A DNA stretch of 64,000 bases from assembly GCA_002104985.1 (NCBI GenBank), contig MCGO01000089.1:62001-126000 (forward strand), written 5' to 3'. Source of the stretch: Rhizoclosmatium globosum. Its lineage: Eukaryota > Chytridiomycota > Chytridiomycetes > Chytridiales > Chytriomycetaceae. Positions 49,698-63,033 of the stretch are shown here, in pieces. The position numbers and the translations under genes are program-made. Position 1 is the stretch's first letter, and each line of letters opens with the position of its first letter. The notes beneath the pieces were generated by a model that had not been told where the DNA came from, made no database searches, and was given only the letters and a program-made list of their open reading frames with translations.

Positions 49698-51578
49698 TTA
49701 AGCGTTAGAGGTTACGAATTGAGAGTTTTCGGATGGCTCAAAGGTTGCCTTGGTGTTGACGGCACGTTTTGAATAAAAGTAGTAAACCGCAGCAGCGATA
49801 GCACATAAACCAGCAAGTCCTCCGACGACTCCACCAGCGATTGCACCAGCATTATTAGAGCTTCCTGAGTCCGCGAGTGCCGCAGCTGTAGTTGTCGAAA
49901 CAGCAGCAACAGCAGTGTTGAAGCGGATAGAAGAGCTTGCAGTAAGAGTTGAAGAAGTGACATTTGAAGTGCTTGCAGTAGCGGAGGCTGTGACATTGCC
50001 AGCTGGTTTGGCAGTTGATGGTCCAAACCCTCCACCACCATTAACAACGATGATCGCATTCAACAAAGCGACAGCCTCGAACTGATCACGAACATTCTTT
50101 CCATCAGGACTGATGAGAGTGAACGCAGCACCTGATTTTGGGTGAAGAGAAAAAAATTGGGATTTTTGGCAAAACTCAAATTTGCAAATTTGTGTCAACT
50201 CACCAGCCCCAAAGTCACGCATACAATCCCAGTTCGAAGAGCAGTGTCCGAGAACGTTTGTTGCTGTTGCCTTGAGAATCGCGGCGATGGAACTCTTGGT
50301 GCTTGCGTCACTGGTTGCTCGGTACAAGTAAGCCATTCCCTTGTAGACTGGCCAAGAATATCCAGACGGGTTCTTGTTGCACGGCATAACGTTACAATTG
50401 GGTCCCAAGATACCATCACCACCGACAAAGATATCCCTCAGACCCTTGAACACCTTTGTAGCTTCTTCAATTTCGCCCTGAAGGGCCAAAGCTGTCATTG
50501 CTTCTCCCGCATGGTATGAATACACGTCTTGAGCAACGTTTCCGCAATCGTTCGTGTAAAGTCTGTCGAAAATAATGTATCCTCCATTTCCGTTGTCGAC
50601 AACTAGGTTTGCGGACTTGAGCCAGTTCCAAATTTGGGTTGATTTGTTGGGTTGCCCCAGTCTGACGGCCAAATCCATAACTTGAACATTTGTGATTGTA
50701 CTCTTCATGTAAGGATTTTGGGAACCAGGTTCGCGATCTCTGCTCCTGTAATGCCAAAGGTCAGGAGTTGTTAGAGTCAGGACACGAATCAAGTTCCATA
50801 CCAGTAAATCCCGCCACCACATTTGTCGTCCCAACTCATCCAAACTTGATCGAGGGTTGTTGAAGCAAATGATTTTAGATCCGCGTTGCCAGTAGCCTCA
50901 GCTCCAGAGATACCTGTCAAGCTGCCCGTCAGCCACAATCTCGACAGAAACGCCTCGGATTACTCACTCGACAAGGCCCACCACATAATATCGTCATTCC
51001 AGCGTTGATCTTGCACGTCGGTCGCCTTGAAGCCGCCTCTGAGATCGAGTTAGGGCTGGTTCAAGGTTCAACGTGTCCACTCACAGGAAATCACCATTGC
51101 CAGCAGCCGAAGCATACATGTTTCCATCAGCGAATCCGTTGTTGCTTCCATCGCCGGTAGCAAGTGCGTATTGGTAGAACAGATCTTGATACATTCCTAA
51201 TCCAACTTGTTAGCAGCCGATCTAACCATACACCCCTTCCTCCACGCACCTGACTCGTGCCATTGAACAACCCAGCGACCTCCTTCAAAGACGAGGGTTA
51301 ATGACGGGCTTTGACAGCTGGATTCTTGACACTTGATCAAGTGTACCTGGATTCTCGGCCCACGATCCTTTTCCTTCCACATTCGGTCCATTAAAATACT
51401 GCTGAAGGGGTCCCATGGCTGCCTTGGCTGCGGCGAGAACAGCTCCTGATTCAGACACAAGTATTACTCACCATCAACCAATCAAAGCTGTATGCGAGGC
51501 TTTACCTTTATCAGTCACGTCTAATACTTGGCCATTGGTCAGTGCGATCAATGCGGCAAAGGGGAGAAGGGGAAGCAT
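49698..51578 (-). CDS. GH76 mannanase-like membrane protein, copy J
   Basis: Signal peptide MLPLLPFAALIALTNG from the ATG at 51578. The domain follows copies H and I in intron positions and motifs: QRWNDDIMWWALS, CGGGIYW then SRDREPGSQNPYMKSTITN, YSYHAGEAMTALALQG, PSGYSWPVYKGMAYLY, NVRDQFEAVALLNAI. The Ser/Thr/Ala-rich stalk and single transmembrane helix are present, ending SENSQFVTSNA, a tail related to those of H and I. It is clearly the next closest relative of H and I but is diverged along its whole length, so it is an older duplicate. No frame problem. Confidence 0.87.
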
Positions 51579-51783
51579 TGCGAAAATGAGGGTTGATGAT
51601 TGTGTTCTGCGGTGGAGATGTTCACGTTTTTGGTTCTTCAAGAATCCTGAAGACACTCAATTAAAACAAGTTGCCGAGAGAGAACAATGCAAGTCGAATG
51701 ATTCTCAGTTCGAAAGTAACATAAGAATTGTTGAAAAATAGGGGTACTTAAATTGAATCTACTGTTGATTTTTTGATCGTGCA

Positions 51784-53751
51784 TCAGAATCTTGAGCGTG
51801 AAGATTGGCTTCGACCTGACCCTTGAGAATGGCCTCCAGTGCTTCCAGTAGGCGTCCTCACATCCCAACCTTCGTTCCTTCCCGCATTTCGACCGCCATC
51901 CATGTAATCATTCCTTCCAGCATCATTTCGTCGAGGAACTCCACGCCCCATATTATTCTTGCTGCCACTTATTGGACCTTCAACCAACTTCTCCCTTGAC
52001 GAGCTCGTATACATTTCCCTTTCTGAATACGCCACCTGCTGCTCAGCGCCTTATTGCGCTTCACAACCAAAACCACAATCAAGATGACAAGGATAAGTGC
52101 GACACAACCGAATCCAATTCCAAGATACAGTGCGAGTTTTGTGTTTGCTCCAGTAGCAGCTTTCGTTGATCCATCTCCAGTGACGATAGGAGTTTTGTCT
52201 TGAACATGTTGGATCACTGGCGCACCTGTGATGACGACTAGGGCGTTTAGAATGGCAACAACTTCGAATTGATCACGCGGAGATGTTCCGTTCCATAGAG
52301 TACGATCGGTGCCTGAAAAAATGTTTCGAAGTTGCGATTAGGAACGTTAAAGCAAATTCAACCTTTATGAAGACTCACTGGGATCCAAGTCACGAATGCA
52401 GTACCAAATTGAATTGCAGGGCTGGAAATTGAACGCAGCACTTGCGGCCATTATTGTACGGATCTGAGCTTTGATGGAATCGTCTGTTGTAATTGAGTAC
52501 AAGACCCCAATTCCTCTGTAGACTGGCCACATGAAACCGTTTGGCATAATCGGAGCAGGTCCACGCATGGGATCGTACAGAATATTGTTGAACGTGAAAT
52601 GTGAGGCAACGTGCTTGAAGTGTTTATGCGCTTCGTCAAGATATCGCTGGTTTCCCGTTGCTTTGTACATTGTAGCAAGACCTGACATAAGCTCTCCAGA
52701 GTGGTATGAAAACTGAGAAAAGGTTTACATAATTTAGCTGTTGTAGGTCGGGATACATACCAGCGTTCTATCAATTGCACAAGCACGGCTGTCAAGACCA
52801 TCGGCAACAGCGTAAGTGACCGGATCAATCAATGTTGAACTCAGCATCCAAGTGTAAACACGATCAACGTAGTCACGATACATTTCGTTCTTGGTATAAG
52901 CGTACAATCTGGCGCCCATGTCCACATGCTGCGCGTTTGTAATCGAAGACTTGTAGTAGGCATCGTTGACTTTTGGAGTTGTTCTATCACGACTCCCTGC
53001 TTGATTTTTAGAGTATGTACACTTACACAGCAAACACTCACAAAACATCCCTCCTCCACACGAGTCATCCCACTGTTCATACATCTGAATAAAGGTCGTA
53101 TTGACGACATCAATGTACCGTGGATTCTGCCCCTCAATGGGATTTTTCGGGGCCAGAATACCATCCTTTGTCGCTTCAGCTGCAGACATCACACCAAGCG
53201 CCCACCATCCAATATCTATTACATCCCGATTTAGTAAATGATTTCATGAATGAAATAAAACTCCACAAACCGTCATTCCATCGTCCAGTCTTCTTCGTAA
53301 TCTCATCGAGAAACCCAACATTTGGTCCAACAGCTTGCTGCATCTGATCATCCACCCAGTCATTGAACTGACTATCTCCCGTGAGTCCAAAGTAATCATA
53401 AAAGAAGCCCCAATAAATTCCACTGATGAATATCAGTAACGATCTATATAAGGTGTCTTTCTAAAAAATACCTCTCATGCCATTGAATTAACGTCTTTGA
53501 GGCTGAGTAAGTTTCCTGCCATGCTCCGAGACCGGGCGAGTTGTCTTTGAAGAACATCTTTAACGGCCACATTGCCATTTTGTAGGCGTTCAGGACGGCC
53601 GCTAGAGGTGAAGATGGGGCACGAGTTATTTTGATGAAGCATAAGTGGCTAGAAAAACGGAAGAATTGAAGTGTTTACCTTTATCAGTGACATCCAAGGG
53701 TTCAGCGAATGCACATATAGACAGGAGGCTAAGGAGTGCAACGAGAAGCAT
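51784..53751 (-). CDS. GH76 mannanase-like membrane protein, copy K, frameshift before the tail
   Basis: Signal peptide MLLVALLSLLSICAFAEPLD from the ATG at 53751. The Asp pair is formed across an intron (GRWNDD|IGWWALGVMSAAE) as in copy F, and CGGGMF, KSSITNAQHVDMGARLY and MPNGFMWPVYRGIG follow. A transmembrane helix (LGIGFGCVALILVILIVVLVV) leads to a cytosolic tail. A one-base slip near 52035 decides the tail: uncorrected it ends at 51969 with a basic peptide; corrected it continues QQVAYSEREMYTSSSRE to 51784 as a long Gly/Arg/Ser-rich tail. The latter has tyrosine- and serine-rich sequence that could be regulatory, but the correction is not proven. Confidence 0.82.
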
Positions 53752-53979
53752 GCTGTCGCCTTCGCTACTTAGGTTGCTCTGATGAATTTTGAACCCGCCC
53801 AATAACGCTCTGAATTTTTTTGTAACGCCCCGCAAAGTTCAACCACACAGAATTCAAAGCCAACAAACAAAATTGAAACACAAGCCAATGTGCATAAACC
53901 ACCTTGTCCCGCAGTCCCTTTCCAACACTTATGCACACGTTCACCTTTTACGTTTGGTAGTACTCGTTTATTTTTGTTA

Positions 53980-56900
53980 CTATTCTTCTTGAATAGAGTA
54001 TTTCTCCAACAGTTCGACAACTTTAGTATGACCCATTGCTCTTGCCAAACTGACGGCAGTTCCACCTTGGTAATTCACAAAATCCAGACAAGCTCCTTTT
54101 GAAAGCAAAAGACCAACCTTCTCTAAATTTCCATCTTCTGCTGAGTACATTAAAGACGACGACCCATTTTTATCACATGCATTCACATTGGCCCCTTTCG
54201 AAAGAAGAAGAGCCAGAACCTCTGCGCTTCCGTATTTTGCTGCGTAAATAAGCGGTGTACAACCTTTGGCATTCGTTGCATCCAATTTTGCACCCGTTGA
54301 TATTAAAAAGTCCACTGTGTCTACGTGTCCCTTCAGTGCTGCGAGCATTAAAGGTGTCCATCCTTTCTTGTCTGCAGTATTCACCATAGCTCCATTAGAT
54401 ATTAACATCGAAACTGTTTCGGTGTAGTTTTTAATCGCTGCCAGTGATAGTGCAGTCCATCCATGGTGGTCTTCCGCATTCACATCAGCTCCATTCTCTA
54501 ATAAAAGCATGATGACTTTTGTGCTATTTGATTGGGCAGCTGACATCAACGGTGTACATCCTTTTAAGTTATAAGCGTTCACTGTAGATCCTTTTGAAAT
54601 AAGGAAAGCAACGGTGTCTGCATATCCACCTTCAGAAGCAAGCAACAGAGCAGAGTTTCCGTTTTTGTCCGCCGCATTCATGGAAGCTCCACTGGACACC
54701 AACGATTCAACAACCTTAAGGTGGCCCTTTGACCCAGCCAACATCAGAGATGTCTTTCCATTATTGTTTGCAATATTCACGGCAGCATTTTTCGATAGCA
54801 ATAGAGCAACGACATCGAGATGTCCTTTCTCGGCTGCGTACATAAGAGGAGTATTTCCTTCCTTGCAGGGAGAATCAGTTATCGCGCCATTGGATAACAA
54901 TAGTGAGACTGTCTCCAGGCTTCCATTAAGTACAGCGTAAGTCAGCGACGACCACCCTTTGCTGTCAAGAGCATTTATCGAGGCTCCAGCATTAAGAAGT
55001 ATCTGAACGATATCATAGTCTCCAATTTCAGCCGCTTTCATTAATGCTGTCCATCCATTCTTGTTCATTGCATCCACAGTAGCTCCATTTGAAACCAAGA
55101 GTATTACTGTTTCTTTATAGCCCTTGGAAGCTGCATAGAACAGCGACGACATCTCGTTCTTATTGACAGCATTCACAGTGGCGCCATTTGAAATAAACAG
55201 AGCAGCTGTTTTTGTGGATCCCGTCAATACCGCGAATAGTAACGGTGACATTCCGTTTCGATTTGTGGGATGCACGGAGGCTCCATACTTGAGCAAAAGG
55301 GAGCAGGTGTCATTATTTCCGGATTGAGCTGCATACAAGAGAGGTGTCATTTCATAGTTGTCTATGGAATCTACAACTGCACCGCTTGATAAAAGCATTG
55401 AACAGATTTCAGTGTATCCTTTGTGAGCAGCATACATCAGAGGCGTTAATCCATTTTTGCAAGGCTTGTCAATTAAGGCTCCTTTAGAAAGCAGGAATCG
55501 AATAATCTTGGCGTTTCCAATCTGCGCTGCAATCAGTAAGGCTGTCATTCCGTTGTTGCTAACACTGTCCACAGCGGCGCCGTTTGATAGTAATACATCA
55601 ACAATATTTTCATCGCTCTTTTCGACAGCAAGAATGAGTGGTGTTAATCCGTCCTTGTCTGGTTCATCCACATTCGCACCGTTTGAAATTAGAAGGGAAA
55701 CAGCCTCTGTGTGCCCATTTGAAACTGCAAGCGTCAAAGGCCTCACTTTGTCCTTTGTTGCCCGATCAGAAAAAGCACCGTTCGACAGCAGAATCTGAAT
55801 CACTTGAACGTTTCCGTTCTTTGCTGCAAACATCAAAGGCATCCACCCAGTCCTACTAACAGAATTTACATTGGCCCCATTTCCAATCAACAATTCCACA
55901 GTCCCAACATGCCCATACAAAGCCGCATGCATGAGAGCGGTCCAACCATTCTTTGTTGAAAGGTCTACAGCGGCTCCGTTCGAAAGCAAGAACCCAACCG
56001 TTTCAGTTTGTCCGTTTCTTGCTGCAAATATCAACGGCGTCCACCCTTTCTCATTCGCAACATCAACATGGGCCCCATTCGAAACAAGCTGTGAAACACT
56101 TTTAATGTCTCCGTTCTGCGCTGAATACATGAGCAACGTAAGACGCCCATACGTTGTGAAATCCCAATCAACAAGAGCCTTGACTGATGCCCCATTCTCC
56201 ACAAGCAGTTCGAAAATCGCGTCATTGTTCAAAAGAATCGATGCGGCTAACGCAAGGAATCCGAATTTTTTAGAAAAGTCGGCTATATTGGGAGGAGGGT
56301 TGTTGGTATCAATGTGATGCGACCAGTTCTCTAGAGCATAAGAAGTTGCAGTGGAGAGCTTTTCTTTGATGCCGAACCATGCTTTTTGGGCGAGCGAGTA
56401 GACGACTTGTTTGTGGCGGCTGACATCTTGAGTGGTAAGGAACGACCCCAATATATCCAAACAGCTGGTTGCAAGAGCGTAGTTTGATTCAGATTCGCTG
56501 ATCAAGAAATTTTGTTTGCATCGCGCAGGGTTTGAGAAATAATCTTTGACACTCTTGTGAATCACTGATATTCTGTTGGCTGAAATTTTGAGGACGGAGC
56601 GCATCTGTTTGAAGTCAATCAAAACAAATATCAAAACGATTAATGGCTCACCTTATCAACAAACATCACTGTCTCGTTATACAACGTATTTGTCAATATA
56701 CTTAAAGAATTCAAGTCGAGAGGAACTCTAGAAAACAGAATCGCGCCAAACAGGGCCTTAAACACATCGATATCGAATTCATGTGCTATATTCGCTGCAA
56801 TTGCGGCATAAACGTCATCAGGTCCCTCGGAAAATTCTTGGATGGCTTTCACAGCTTCATCAGGACCATATTTAGAAGATTGTAAGAACTGAATCACAAC

Positions 56901-58965
56901 CTTGACAAATATCAATAGCCCTTCTGATTTGCTGACAATGAGATCCATGGCTACCAGAGCGGCAGCTGGAAGTTCAAAGGTTTCAATGTTCCAAAGCTCC
57001 TTCAACCGTTGTTTTACAACAATCTGAACGTCAATTAAATTGTTTTCATTCGTTGGCGACAGTTCATATGAACTCAGCTCCGTAAGGCAATCGTAGATAT
57101 CCTTTTCAGGTCGGCCCGTCAAAAATATTTTGACAAATGAAGGAAGCTTTGGACCAAATTCCGTCAATATAGTCAAAAGCACTTGTCGTGTTTCATACTT
57201 CAACTCATCAATGGCATCGATCACCATCAACACTGTCTTTCCACAATTCTGAACTTGATTGAATCCACCAAGAACCAAGGTTTCAAACGCCTTGACCGGG
57301 CTTGTAAGGATACTCGCATCGCCTTGTTCAACAGCCGCCGCATCCGCTTCCATTTCAGATTCCACATATGCCTTGAACTCAGGAAACCGTTCAGAAAGAG
57401 ACCATACCATATTCGAAACAACCATTGCAGGGTCATTCCGCCAACTATCACCAAACGAGCAATAAAACTGAAACGCGAGCACAACGTCATCCGGAACGCT
57501 TTGAGTAACAGCATACGAAATCAACGACTTCCCCGTTCCCGCGCCTCCATTCAACCAAATAATATTAACTCCATCCTTTCGAGTTGCCCACTGATACACC
57601 AAGTCCACAGCCCACCCTCGCGTCCCACCCACAAACTCCTTTGCATAATCCGCAACAACGTTCTTGAAGTCGAACGGGTTGAGCCATTCTTGCAACTTTG
57701 ATACAAATCCAACGACAGATTTGGGCATGTATTTCGGGACTTTGGATTCAATCTGGCGGAATACAGTCTCTAATGCTGAGGACCAAGTGGGATCGTTACC
57801 CTTAACCGCGCCTTTGAAGTCACCGTATAATATTCCAGCAGTGAGAAGGAAGGGCTTCGCAGTCGATGGTTCGCGTTTGTAGGATTTCACTTGCTCGATT
57901 GTCATGTCGCCAAACATGTAAACAGGGATAATAGGGATTCCTGAGTCAGCAGCATATTCAAGTTCGCGTACGCAATTGGGTGAAACCTATTAATGTCGTT
58001 TTTGGAATAATGTGAGTTGGGGTGAGAAAGGCAATGGAAGACACACCAAATATTTGGGCGAGAGACAGACAATCAAAGCGCTGGAACGCGTCAACCCGAA
58101 CGTCATTCCATCGTAAATATTGGTTTTCATTTGCTCCTTATCCCACCATAATCGAATGTCAGGGTATTTGAAACGGATACAGGCACATAGGTCTGCTACT
58201 TGATCTTCGGTGGACCAACTTTGCAACCATAAACAAAAGAAGTCAATTGTAAAAGAAACAGAGACAGTTGAAATACCTGTAAGATATCATTACGTCAAAC
58301 GTTTCACCCATATCGGCCATCGGAGCTATGAGTTCACGTTGCGGCGCAGGAGTCCGTGCCACAGTGTCGAGAGTTTTGCTGGAAACACGCTCAAGGTACA
58401 ATTCGTATCCAGATATACAAAGGTCTCGAAGACTGTCATTGTCCACTGGGATTCGGTTTCCAGATACAGAGAGAGCTGCAGAGAGCTTATACCCATGCGA
58501 CGAGACGTCAAGTTTCTGTTCGATCTACAACCGGTATTAGTGATTTGGAATTTTTGGAAACAATGAGAACGCAAACACCTGTTTGGTCAAGTGTTCGACA
58601 GTAAATTCAAACACTCGAATACCATATCCGAACTGCGCCTTAGACCCAACATCAAAGACAGTGAGTACAGCGTAATTTGCGAATTCAAAAACTGTCTGTT
58701 TCGAGGGATACTGAACGCGCTCGATAATCGCATCAATACGTCCGCGATCCGTAAGCATCTGCCGCAATGCAACTCCCGACAACAACGATTCATTATAGAA
58801 CACCATAATATTGAAACTATTGTCGAGGTCGAATGCTTCCCGTATCTGTTTTCAAAGTGGTATAAACAACTTTTATGATATCGAATCGAAAGCAACCTTC
58901 GCTTTGAGTTCGCGGCCTCTTGTTCCTTTGTCGATCTCAACGAGTTCATAGTCTTTTGAATCCAT
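53980..58965 (-). CDS. NLR-like protein: two ubiquitin-like domains, TIR, NACHT, about 22 ankyrin repeats
   Basis: Six exons (58965-58897, 58845-58579, 58524-58277, 58218-58047, 57986-56652, 56604-53980) sum to 1571 codons, intact. Residues about 5-75 and 85-165 each resemble a ubiquitin-like fold (VEIDKGTRGRELKAKIREAF; VFEFTVEHLTKQIEQKL). A TIR domain follows at about 185-275: DVMISYSWST, IRLWWDKEQM, ALIVCLSPKY, NCVRELEYA, IPIIPVY. NACHT: Walker A GGAGTGKS near 400, Walker B VLMVIDAIDEL near 505, sensor region TGRPEKDI. Residues about 860-1565 hold 22 ankyrin repeats with near-constant GWTPLMxAA and LLLSNGAxV. In other NLRs TIR signals through NAD-consuming or scaffold chemistry and NACHT senses and oligomerises; no function is proven here. 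The UBL calls are the least certain. Confidence 0.85.
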
Positions 58966-59574
58966 GTGGCGTTCTACCCTCACACTGAGGGGGAACGTGT
59001 GTTCATAATGTGTTGGCACAACTGTTGCTCGGTATTGGTCAGGCTACGATGGATGCAAAGAGGAGAGAGGAAAGGTTACCTGATTCATTGTTTTGGCTCG
59101 GATGCAAAGAGACAAAATGCGTGACAGTTGAAGGTTGATTGGCTGACGAGAACAAGTTGTCACTAACAGTTTATCAAGAGATAGTATCTTGAAAAGAGTT
59201 CTCACATTGGTCTATTGGTATTGAGATCGGACTGTCAGTGTTGCTCGGAACTTGCTTCACTGCTGCCACTGAGATGTTTACTATGCAATCAAAGACTTTA
59301 ACAACTGGAAGTCCCATCATTCATAGGTTACCTTCTTTTGAAGACCCATTTCCCATTATTGTGGGCTAGAACGGGTTGTACTTTGGGTCAACTTTGCTGA
59401 TGTGAAGAAAGTGTAAATGTCACTCTAGGTTTATCCCACTTTTATTGTATTCTTTAACCATACATCATTTGTTAATATACAGTTTTATCTATCAAAAAAA
59501 TGAATTTCATAAAAAACAACCCCTAATTATGTCACCACACCACGTCCAGGCTCCAATCCACCCCTTTTTCCCCT
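58966..59574. other. Intergenic stretch upstream of the NLR gene
   Basis: About 600 bases between the NLR start and the CorA stop. I see no gene. The stretch contains GTTGGTGTTCATAATG-like and A/T-rich sequence only, without repeats or strong motifs. Confidence 0.45.
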
Positions 59575-61501
59575 TCATGCACGCTCCAACAACCCCATCT
59601 TCCATGACCCAATCATCGTCACAACAACAATCACAGTCGTCCAAATCCAGAAATACCAAAACCCAAGATCATAATGCAATTCCGGGAAATAATCAAAGTT
59701 CATTCTACGGAACAAAAAATTAGAGTTTCTTGAGGTGGGGGAAACAAGGGTAAAAACTTACCCATACACACCCGCCACAAACGTTGTCGGCAGAAACACA
59801 AAACTAACCACAGACAACAACTTCATACTCTCATTCGTCTGATGCGATATCATATTAAACGTCAGATCAAGTAACGACGTAGCAGACTGTTCCATCGCCT
59901 CCAGCTCTTCAAGGATCGTAAGGCAGTGGTCCAACACGTCCCCGAAATACGTCTTTGTGAGAGGGGAGAATAGGTTTTCCGGGGATGTTTCCTTCAACGC
60001 TGTCAATAGGTTTTCAGTTGGCGCGAGTTTTCGACGAAGGATTGTGAGTTCTTTGAGGACGAGGTGGAGGGCTATACGTTGGGGGAATTTTTTTTGATGA
60101 ATATTGTGGCTTGAAATAATTATGTGCGTTAAAGAACGTACTCTTTGTGTAAGCGACTTTCGGGGCTCCAACAACACTATCATGAACACGATTAATCTGT
60201 TCCTCGTAAAACTCAACAACTTCGAAAAAGTGGTCCACGATTCCGTCAACGATTGCATGGACGAGGAGACCGGGGTCGCCTGTTTTACGATGTCAAAAAG
60301 TCAAAGTCCGCTCGAAAGGGATCAGAAACCGTACCAGACTTTCGCAAGACAGTAAACCGTTCTTTTACGCCACAAGCCCGACAATGTTCGACAAATTCAC
60401 CCAACTCCTTATTCTTTCCACCAGTCACGGCAGGAGTTGTAGAACTTGAGGAAGCCCCGTACAAAACCTCCATGACACGGTCAGTGACTTGTCGCCCGGA
60501 CCCTTGGAACACGGAAACGACGATATTCCCGCACAGAAAGATGCTGCATTCTTCGAGATGAACTGTAGGCCTGGGAAAAGCTTGAGAAATGTTGCTCCGT
60601 TTGTCTGGTATTCAAATAACATGTTAGTTCATGCTCCCTCGTATTCGGCATTGGTCAAATGCAGTCATCAGTTCACAGATATGCACTCACTCCGCTGCTC
60701 TTTCCCCTCGTGAAGATGACACTGCTTGATTCATTTGGGCTACACTCAGAACTCTCCCCACAACTTTCCCCCGTTTCCACACATCCAAACTCAACGCACC
60801 TCCTTCCACCAAATCAAAACAAACACTAACCAGTAACCCGGTCAATAACCTCATTATGCCCCTGAATCAACACCGGCAAATTCTGCGGCACACTTGCACT
60901 CTCTACACTCCCAATCGACAGAATCGGCATCAACAGCGAAATGTACGTGTGCGAGTCATACGAGTCCGTCTTTATACGTTGCGGGAGGTGGAACACGTCT
61001 TCCTGTATACATTTTGCCAAGAGTTATTTCCGGGTTTTTGGTTTATGTTGAAAGGAGGGAGGAGAATGGTACCACAGCGAGAGGGTGGAGGTTCAGTTTC
61101 GATTGGAGGGCAGACATTGAGGATGTTGTTAGGCCGGACACGTTGATCCATCTGATTGCGGTTGGGTCTGATGAGAAGGGAGACGGGGTGTTGAGAGCGG
61201 CAGACAGGGATTCGGAGGATACGACAGTTGAGTGGATGTCAGCGTGGGTAAAGTCAACGATTGAAATGTGTGGGGCAGTTTTGTGGTTGTGTTGGATTGA
61301 GGGAGAAGGTGAAGGTGCGGGCAGAGTGAGGCCCGGAGCAGAGTTGCGCACGTGTTCTCGCTTTGACTCCGTTTTTGGCGGTTGCGAAAGTGCGAGAACC
61401 GCAGTCGTTTTGTGCACGGCGGCTTGGAAGCGGTGGCGGGCCGATTGCGATCCTGTTACTTTCGGTGGTGGTGGTTGGTCGGATTGTTGGAACTCGCTCA
61501 T
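59575..61501 (-). CDS. CorA-family divalent metal transporter, one frameshift
   Basis: The N-terminal cytosolic domain begins at 61501 and includes IRWINVSGL and KLNLHPLAV, joined by an intron to EDVFHLPQRIKTDSYDSHTYISLLMP, the conserved CorA core. Later come LEECSIFLCGNIVVSVFQ, DRVMEVLYGA, LVHAIVDGIVDHFFEVVEFYEEQI, and the helical stalk SLLDLTFNMISHQTNESMK. The pore is SVVSFVFLPTTFVAGVYG with GMN completed across the last intron as G-MNF, followed by a second membrane helix ending at 59575. GMN identifies the Mg2+/Co2+ or Zn2+ transporter superfamily. One slip occurs near 60290 between DFDFLTS and KTGDPG. An unusual feature is the long poly-Pro/Ser-rich extension before the core. Confidence 0.82.
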
Positions 61502-62002: not shown

Positions 62003-62707
62003 TTAGAACTTCATCAAGTGTGGCTTCTGTCCCTTGGTGAGAGAGAAGGAAGCGTTCAAGTAAGCCTTCAACAAAGGAGTCTTCTTGACCTCAGCAAGGA
62101 TGGCAGCATCAACAGCCTTCTGGGCAGCAACACGCTCCTCAGCAACTGGGCGCTTGGCAGCAATGTCGAACAAAGCAGCCTCAGTAGCCTTCTGCTTAAC
62201 CTCACGGGTAGCCTTGAAAGCAGCGTCGTTGACAATCTCTGGAACAACAACCTTGGAGACATCCACCTTAGCAGAGGTAGCGATAGCGTAAGCCTGGTTA
62301 ACACGACGCAATGGAACACCGTTGATCTTGAATGGACCAGTAACCAACAACAAACCAGAAGGCAAGGTCTTCAAGTAGACGACACGCTTTCCAGCGAAAC
62401 GACCGGCAATCAAGATCAAGACAGTTCCAGGGGTGATGGAAGCACGGGTGGTGGATGGGCGGTTGACCTTGCGGGAGAGACGTGGGACTGGGGCGTCTTC
62501 GGCCGGGTAGAATTTGGAGGTCTTGACGAGGGAGACGGTACGGGTCTTTCCGTTCTTTGCTCCACCGATTGGCTTGACGACGGTGGTTGGCTTTGGCTCG
62601 GTCTTGGCTGGGGAGGCCTTCTTGCGGTGGAAGAGACCCTTGGCCTTGTAGGCGGCAGAGCGGGAGAGCGTGGCGACTCCTGGGATCAACTGGGGGTTCT
62701 TGGTCAT
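62003..62707 (-). CDS. RPL6: 60S ribosomal protein eL6
   Basis: A single 234-codon exon with an intact frame. The conserved core reads TPGTVLILIAGRFAGKRVVYLK, TGPFKINGVPLRRVNQAYAIATS, characteristic of eL6 of the large subunit, which sits near the expansion segment ES39 region of 25S rRNA. The N-terminus MTKNPQLIPGVATLSRS and Lys/Arg-rich linker are typical, and the C-terminus ends HLMKF. Codons are strongly biased to C- and G-ending forms (AAG, GTC, GCC), unlike neighbouring genes, as expected for a highly expressed gene. A TTTTTAGATG tract directly upstream may be a splice acceptor of a 5' leader intron. Confidence 0.95.
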   Translation of the reverse strand: MTKNPQLIPGVATLSRSAAYKAKGLFHRKKASPAKTEPKPTTVVKPIGGAKNGKTRTVSLVKTSKFYPAEDAPVPRLSRKVNRPSTTRASITPGTVLILIAGRFAGKRVVYLKTLPSGLLLVTGPFKINGVPLRRVNQAYAIATSAKVDVSKVVVPEIVNDAAFKATREVKQKATEAALFDIAAKRPVAEERVAAQKAVDAAILAEVKKTPLLKAYLNASFSLTKGQKPHLMKF

Positions 62708-63033
62708 TTTTTAGATGTCTGCTTTCGAAGAGGTGAGGGTTAGTGTCCATATACTGAGGAGGGGTTGGAGGAGGGATGTCGCAACAGACAGCATCATCGA
62801 TCACATCCATCGCATCCAGTCCACGGCAATCACGGCTGATCATCAGATGGTACTCGACACGGTTGGATAGATACGATGACGCAGTGATGGCTGTGGTCGT
62901 GGTGATGGGTGATGGCAGGTAAGTGGTCACATACGTTTTTGGCAAAGGTACGAAAGCAATGAGAACAAGACGAACAACTCACTCAAACAAAACCAAAAAA
63001 GAAGCGAGAAAGTAAAGTATGATACAGTGTAGT
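62708..63033. promoter_or_regulatory. RPL6 upstream region
   Basis: 325 bases that must hold the promoter and 5' leader of RPL6. A pyrimidine-rich TTTTTTAG just before the ATG and CACCTCTTCGAAAGC farther upstream are the only features I can point to. Other frames here are antisense chance. Confidence 0.4.

Follow-up and report, generated by a model that had tools for sequence, protein, structure and literature searches.

The gene considered here lies on the minus strand of a 64,000-nucleotide stretch of genome (the window; contig MCGO01000089.1, C409:62001-126000) of the chytrid Rhizoclosmatium globosum (Chytridiomycetes, Chytriomycetaceae). It encodes a protein resembling the NOD-like receptors (NLRs), in which a leader of the MGxxxS type, two predicted ubiquitin-like domains (UBL1 and UBL2, together termed the header), a TIR domain, a NACHT module and 22 ankyrin repeats follow one another in a single spliced frame. 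The assembly comprises 56.9 Mb in 420 contigs, and near-identical duplicate contigs are present in it; the family counts given below are of places, unless they are called collapsed.

A first-pass annotation, made from the sequence alone, had joined six exons over five GT-AG introns of 47-60 nt into 1571 codons free of stops that unite the TIR, NACHT and ankyrin parts, and we reproduced this frame exactly. The ATG at which it began appears to be internal, because its first exon runs on upstream in frame with a conserved strand of the type H.(Y/F/L)P..(V/A)K(V/I); of the 12 other members of the same clade whose sequence was read, 10 have it too. This strand is also present in an annotated homologue, P0007, and forms the first beta strand (residues 17-21) of the structure predicted for it. 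Through three further introns, all of phase 1 (51, 63 and 58 nt), the upstream extension reaches another ATG, at 59356, which on sequence grounds is the likely true start of a gene of nine exons and 1644 residues (Table 1); the boundaries first proposed for UBL1 were corrected with it.

Table 1. Features of the receptor gene, in window coordinates
Feature	Position	Strand	Basis
Whole gene, likely model (nine exons, 1644 residues)	53980..59356	-	Spliced frame; constraint on the coding sequence relative to its collinear counterpart on C130
Six exons of the first-pass frame	58965-58897, 58845-58579, 58524-58277, 58218-58047, 57986-56652, 56604-53980	-	Splicing at GT-AG introns
Exon 1 (25 nt, phase-1 donor); likely start MGNGSSKE, N-myristoylation-type	59332..59356	-	Recurrent MGxxx(S/T) exon among family loci
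Exons 2 (59280-59206) and 3 (59142-59080), coding for the unconserved leader (residues about 9-54)	59080..59280	-	Predicted exon borders
Predicted UBL1, residues about 60-151 of the full model; phase-0 intron (58896-58846) within helix 1	58681..59007	-	Profiles, P0007 model, fold search
Predicted UBL2, residues about 152-238; phase-0 intron (58578-58525) within helix 1	58366..58680	-	Profiles, homologue models, fold search
TIR domain; catalytic-type E333 (E260 in first-pass numbering) at 57965-57963, in SPNCVREL	57846..58302	-	Pfam TIR_2, 2.4e-13
NACHT/STAND P-loop module (NPHP3_N at 57599-57111; Walker A at 57548-57525); includes the last intron (56651-56605)	56605..57599	-	NPHP3_N, 7.2e-21
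Ankyrin array to the stop codon: 21 complete 33-residue repeats between a degenerate first and a shortened final one	53980..56244	-	Ank_2, 4.7e-223, and register

The profile search bears out a TIR domain in the N-terminal effector position, with 51.1 bits for TIR_2 against a cut-off of 28. Its nearest solved relatives by sequence are tir-1 (1.3e-7), Cat1, a SARM1/tir-1 chimera and then MyD88, and most of the Foldseek list for the model of another homologue, P0005, consists of TIR structures. The glutamate of helix C is kept in 12 of the 13 aligned rows of the window's clade and in all 11 rows of a second clade; the sole row lacking it, L055, aligns poorly beyond the last intron. In the next module the Walker A (GGAGTGKS) and Walker B (VIDAIDEL) motifs are both intact and, with the NPHP3_N match, confirm the NACHT assignment, the Pfam model for NACHT itself remaining below its cut-off (22.4 vs 26.7 bits). 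Fold matches of the P0007 model include the tetramer of RPP1 (a plant TIR-NLR), other plant NLRs, Avs3, CED-4 and APAF1. The exact 33-residue register of the ankyrin array (21 full repeats and one shortened, plus a degenerate leader) shows that the original count of 22 was right. The protein thus has the features by which NLRs are recognised, namely a P-loop with Walker A and B motifs and C-terminal superstructure repeats. No sign of recent concerted evolution among the ankyrin repeats was seen, the top nucleotide identity between any of them being 0.68.

How common is this architecture? The first-pass annotation had put the gene forward as a single undescribed system; it proves to be one member of a multi-copy family. 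TIR matches occur at 92 places in the R. globosum genome (exon pieces counted apart), 34 of which have NPHP3_N directly downstream, and before haplotypes were collapsed the header was detected at 27 of these 34. Two of the seven headerless places (C412:136954, which is L047, and C409:4480, the first half of the annotated protein P0006) seem by eye to have a diverged header. Starting from the header, 35 places were entered (two being pieces of the window gene), and 31 are followed on the same strand by a TIR match no more than 1.5 kb away; among the four that do not, those on C130 and C24 show a TIR on direct comparison. Two second-clade headers, at C400:10540-10875 and C97:4674-4919, have no downstream TIR match. 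The window's clade amounts to about 13 header loci once near-identical copies are collapsed, and the second clade is defined by mutual alignment of its upstream frames.

Members of the family retain the UBL-UBL-TIR-NACHT core but combine it with different sensors. Ankyrins are found in the window gene, L042, L050 and L054; WD40 repeats in L044, L048 and L049 (by eye) and in P0003 of Rhizoclosmatium sp. JEL0117 (by Pfam), the label 'WD40 clade' being drawn only from members whose sensor was recognised; and P0007 (C135, L024) ends instead in Sel1 repeats and a SAM domain. Since paralogues at 31-44% identity keep the same domain order, the architecture is not a product of chance. Seven proteins annotated in three Rhizoclosmatium genomes (P0001-P0007) join TIR-NACHT to the complete header or a portion of it within a single chain, and the four from R. 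globosum sit on contigs C1, C224, C409 and C135. In P0006 (C409:1-7159, BCR33DRAFT_857744) a TIR-NACHT-ankyrin receptor continues through the header and partway into the TIR of the adjacent tandem gene, and the annotation appears to have merged two genes. Similar non-NLR frames (one starting MGWDKLVFG) lie downstream of the receptors at L040, L041, L043 and L047, two of these loci being near-duplicates, and perhaps represent a mobile element; beside the receptor gene L050 (C224), about 4.9-5.9 kb past its TIR start, are frames that we take to resemble a PIF/Harbinger-type transposase.

A profile of header, TIR and NACHT gave 28 matches in the protein database, comprising the seven Rhizoclosmatium family members and 21 NACHT-type proteins, and a profile of header and TIR gave one. 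Among the 7999 best word-sharing candidates scored, relatives of the header came only from R. globosum, R. hyalinum and sp. JEL0117, and matches outside Rhizoclosmatium had no precomputed TIR_2 label where the full label list was displayed. When residues 1-380 of the first-pass frame were compared with 5.8 billion proteins, none of 3786 candidates reached E<=1e-3.

The suggestion that two ubiquitin-like folds precede the TIR holds for their order and their recurrence over the family, and has gained support from profiles and homologue models. In comparisons with PDB sequences, a profile of 10 paralogues gave five matches at E<=10, four to NUB1 (best 0.0052) and one to the U11/U12 25K protein, both of which contain ubiquitin-like domains. 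With a 13-row profile, all eight matches wholly inside the header were to NUB1, 25K or ubiquilins (E 0.01-0.47), and one further weak match, running from header into TIR, was to a phage fibre protein (E 4.2). A joint UBL1 profile matched nine ubiquitin-like domains of R. globosum itself (P=2.8e-4, with none of 60 column shuffles as good). Comparable shuffles never equalled the similarity of the UBL1 and UBL2 profiles to each other (P=1.7e-5; 0/60), nor the homology of the header across the two clades (UBL1, P=3.5e-10; UBL2, P=2e-5; 0/60 each). Phase-0 introns follow first-pass residues 23, 112 and 252 in 12, 11 and 11, respectively, of the 13 rows of the window's clade (the window included), the one at 252 being present also in all 11 second-clade rows, and in most rows of both clades such an intron lies inside the first helix of each UBL. 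This correspondence, taken with the homology of UBL1 and UBL2, is what tandem duplication would be expected to leave, and at the sequence level the two look like tandem duplicates.

Predicted structures of homologues point the same way. In the AlphaFold model of P0007 both UBLs follow the order beta-beta-alpha-beta-beta-alpha-beta (predicted local distance difference test, pLDDT, about 49-76 for the UBL1 block and 37-55 for that of UBL2), as does UBL2 in the model of P0005 (block pLDDT 51-80). Linear poly-ubiquitin, a di-ubiquitin derivative or ISG15 accounts for 16 of the 50 rows listed by Foldseek for P0007, each over 171-178 columns with a probability of 1.00 (E 1.2e-4 to 9.1e-4), and we infer that these rows cover the header, because their length fits a twin UBL and the rest of P0007 has no ubiquitin-like parts. 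From the profiles and models together, UBL1 is likely to be ubiquitin-like and UBL2 probably so, both short of proof. UBL2 ends in ...YELYLERVSSKT, followed by the linker and TIR; by eye it has no exposed GG-type tail, such as the C-terminal one of conjugatable modifiers of the ISG15 type. The first-pass annotation had also equated the header with ubiquitin-type recognition, which does not follow: the likeness of a UBL to ubiquitin does not by itself amount to recognition of that kind.

A second copy of the gene, L054 (C130:48155-58154), is collinear with window positions 51467-61475 at 94.9% identity over 10 kb. Ratios of non-synonymous to synonymous divergence (dN/dS) between the copies, with 14 codons containing gaps excluded, were 0.09 for UBL1, 0.03 for UBL2, 0.31 for the linker, 0.06 for TIR, 0.13 for NACHT, 0.27 for the ankyrins and 0.17 overall; the leader (residues 1-58) shows two synonymous and no non-synonymous differences, and residues 774-895 are unchanged. 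These low ratios mark the header as coding and constrained. On this sequence comparison the core (header, TIR and NACHT) is under purifying selection and the ankyrins evolve faster, though not specifically at their binding face: contact positions hold 9 of 37 codons changed non-synonymously and 7 of 40 changed synonymously (p=0.58), so that diversification of this face between alleles gained no support. The coding exons of L054 contain 14 one-base deletions and one 9-base insertion, which break the frame, and no substitution to a stop; over the 10 kb there are 45 gaps, among them 24 one-base deletions in L054 against five one-base insertions. Because of this excess of one-base deletions, L054 looks like an error-rich second haplotype, a decayed duplicate being the alternative. 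The idea that the window copy is a pseudogene was rejected; its frame is open and it shows coding constraint against the C130 copy.

The likely start of the protein suggests attachment to a membrane. The consensus for N-myristoylation calls for G2 with S or T at position 6, and MGNGSSKE in the likely gene model has both. An exon of this MGxxx(S/T) kind (22 or 25 nt, encoding MG(N/G/Q)xx(S) and ending in a phase-1 GT donor) was found upstream of the header at 11 of 24 family loci, the window included, whereas 300 rounds of block shuffling gave 0.77 on average and never more than 4. With a wider choice of residues at position 6, the figures were 12 of 24 loci and 1.48 in shuffles; the excess is not a clean probability, since the loci are related and some are near-duplicates. 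Two of the annotated homologues, P0004 and P0005, start MGGNQSKP and MGGEQSKP.

With moderate confidence, we are inclined to regard the gene as encoding an N-myristoylation-type, membrane-tethered TIR-NLR with a tandem UBL header. The acyl group would tether the receptor to a membrane and the ankyrin array would sense a ligand, upon which NACHT would change its nucleotide state and then oligomerise; the clustered TIRs might, through the conserved glutamate, cleave NAD+ or make an NAD-derived signal, and the loss of NAD or the signal would kill or arrest the cell. The di-UBL header would most likely serve as a docking or regulatory element, either offering a ubiquitin-like surface to ubiquitin-binding partners or holding TIR and NACHT apart at rest, or else as an integrated decoy that draws attackers of ubiquitin signalling.

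Several observations weigh against this reading. The MGxxxS exon was not found at 13 of the 24 family loci, and P0007 as annotated starts MMASSGVK, which is not of the MG type. In Pfam no match to the header passes its cut-off (UN_NPL4 at 0.0066, ubiquitin at 0.063), and the similarity of UBL2 alone to the ubiquitins encoded in the same genome is not significant, its score being reached in 2 of 60 shuffles. In the P0005 model the UBL1 region falls under pLDDT 40 and lacks the topology. Confidence in the P0007 model is itself low to moderate (pLDDT averaging 53 overall and 37-76 in the blocks of the header, predicted template modelling score 0.33, seven sequences). Foldseek prints no model ranges, the coverage of the header by the di-ubiquitin rows being deduced from their length, and the root-mean-square deviations of those rows (6.7-12.7 A) imply that the orientation of the two domains is unmatched. 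VIA-align, which by its own account barely tests the header, listed only TIR and NACHT matches for P0007. Finally, the annotated protein of the window gene was absent from the results of all three protein-database searches, despite the presence there of other R. globosum proteins.

Could the TIR be a scaffold of the MyD88 kind, recruiting other TIR proteins without enzymatic activity, with the NLR acting as an adaptor instead of killing the cell? With 92 TIR places in the genome, 34 of them followed by NPHP3_N, there would be many possible partners, and MyD88 is among the closest solved TIRs; but the catalytic-type glutamate is retained in 23 of 24 rows and the NAD hydrolase tir-1 ranks first among the solved relatives, and we consider this rather unlikely. 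It also seems unlikely that the protein is a housekeeping ankyrin/NACHT protein with no immune role, acting for example in development or trafficking. Not all NACHT proteins are immune, but the swapping of sensors in a multi-copy family, the higher dN/dS of the ankyrins (0.27, where the header, TIR and NACHT have 0.03-0.13) and the effector position of the TIR would be less readily explained.

That the twin UBL is an integrated decoy, with a ubiquitin-cleaving or -modifying factor of a parasite acting on the mimic and so tripping the receptor, is an improbable alternative. Integrated decoys are established in plant NLRs, and the fold match of the P0007 model to linear di-ubiquitin and ISG15 is what such a mimic might give. 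Yet the header is among the parts more constrained between alleles, which fits a signalling part better than a fast-evolving bait, and it is shared by receptors with different sensors; for these two reasons we favour a common signalling or docking role over bait, and the absence (by eye) of a GG-type tail on UBL2 also speaks against a decoy. The fuller scenario, in which one lineage of chytrids evolved its own membrane-anchored TIR receptors, with an ISG15-like header that mimics ubiquitin and a TIR NADase set free once parasite factors attacking or exploiting ubiquitin signalling meet that header, would make them a fungal integrated-decoy NLR and is similarly a long shot. Least probable is that the header represents a variety of Crinkler (CRN) domain, although both would belong to the ubiquitin clan and Crinkler (PF20147) is listed at the N-termini of fungal NLRs in a published paper (PMC9815663). 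The Crinkler model matches at 21 places in the R. globosum genome, and comparisons of the header with Crinkler profiles beat all 60 shuffles (P 0.02-0.04); but at E<=1 the model leaves all 13 header-plus-TIR rows unmatched, and its 21 places all lie apart from the header and TIR matches, the nearest being 4.6 kb before a header on C24. The genome also has 17 HET-domain places, and neither these nor the Crinkler places overlap those with TIR-NACHT.

As to the surroundings of the receptor gene, window positions 49698-53243, 59758-60611 and 62003-62710 presumably hold, from their appearance by eye, secreted glycoside hydrolase family 76 genes, a CorA-type magnesium transporter and ribosomal protein L6.

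Should the header prove to be a twin UBL and the TIR active, early fungi would have possessed their own TIR-NLR solution in parallel with plants, and ubiquitin-like folds would be physically coupled to a TIR switch in a form approachable with small recombinant domains; the combination of header and TIR is a candidate new module for fungal immunity. The 34 TIR-NACHT places of R. globosum, 27 of them with the header, contrast with the few or no chytrid NLRs of surveys that, in the passages available, report zero NLR matches in chytrids (PMC4986451) and numbers starting from one in Chytridiomycota (PMC12258605). TIR had been described in the first-pass annotation as scarce in fungi; it is present in a fungal NLR here, and is not wholly new there, since TIR has already been reported in NLRs from Chytridiomycota (PMC9815663). 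No description of a UBL-UBL-TIR-NACHT protein was found among the titles and passages of the literature matches listed, and the passages seen of PMC4986451, PMC9815663, PMC10197012, PMC12881547, PMC7075850, PMC11291939 and PMC12258605 do not describe two UBLs before a TIR. As far as these excerpts go, then, TIR in chytrid NLRs is already known and the twin-UBL header appears to be new.

Among known systems, the Chytridiomycota TIR-NLRs share the phylum and the TIR-NLR idea, although the portion of text consulted gives neither their architecture nor UBL-UBL before TIR (PMC9815663). The Crinkler-headed fungal NLRs noted in the same source likewise have a ubiquitin-clan domain at the N-terminus, whereas the present header has no Crinkler match and consists of two UBLs followed by a TIR. 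The HET-NACHT-WD40 class of fungal NLRs (HET-E) has a similar NPHP3_N/NACHT core with WD40 or ankyrin sensors, and among the matches of the header-TIR-NACHT profile are proteins named HET-E-1; these NLRs differ from the present protein, with its TIR recognised by Pfam TIR_2 and its twin-UBL header, although HET is stated to be distantly related to TIR (PMC4986451, in the excerpt available). ISG15 and linear di-ubiquitin likewise consist of two consecutive beta-grasp UBLs, and match the P0007 model over 171-178 columns, but here the pair is fused within a receptor, without an exposed C-terminal GG and with its domain orientation unmatched. SARM1/tir-1, which include the nearest solved TIR by sequence and a SAM domain such as that in which P0007 ends, have the order ARM-SAM-TIR and lack both NACHT and UBL. 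The plant TIR-NLRs (RPP1 and Roq1; TIR-NB-ARC-LRR) have the same succession of an N-terminal TIR, a STAND ATPase and a repeat sensor, and RPP1 is the top Foldseek match for both homologue models (P0005 and P0007); the chytrid receptors depart from them in having a P-loop of the NPHP3/NACHT type in place of NB-ARC, ankyrin, WD40 or Sel1 repeats in place of LRR, and a twin UBL preceding the TIR.

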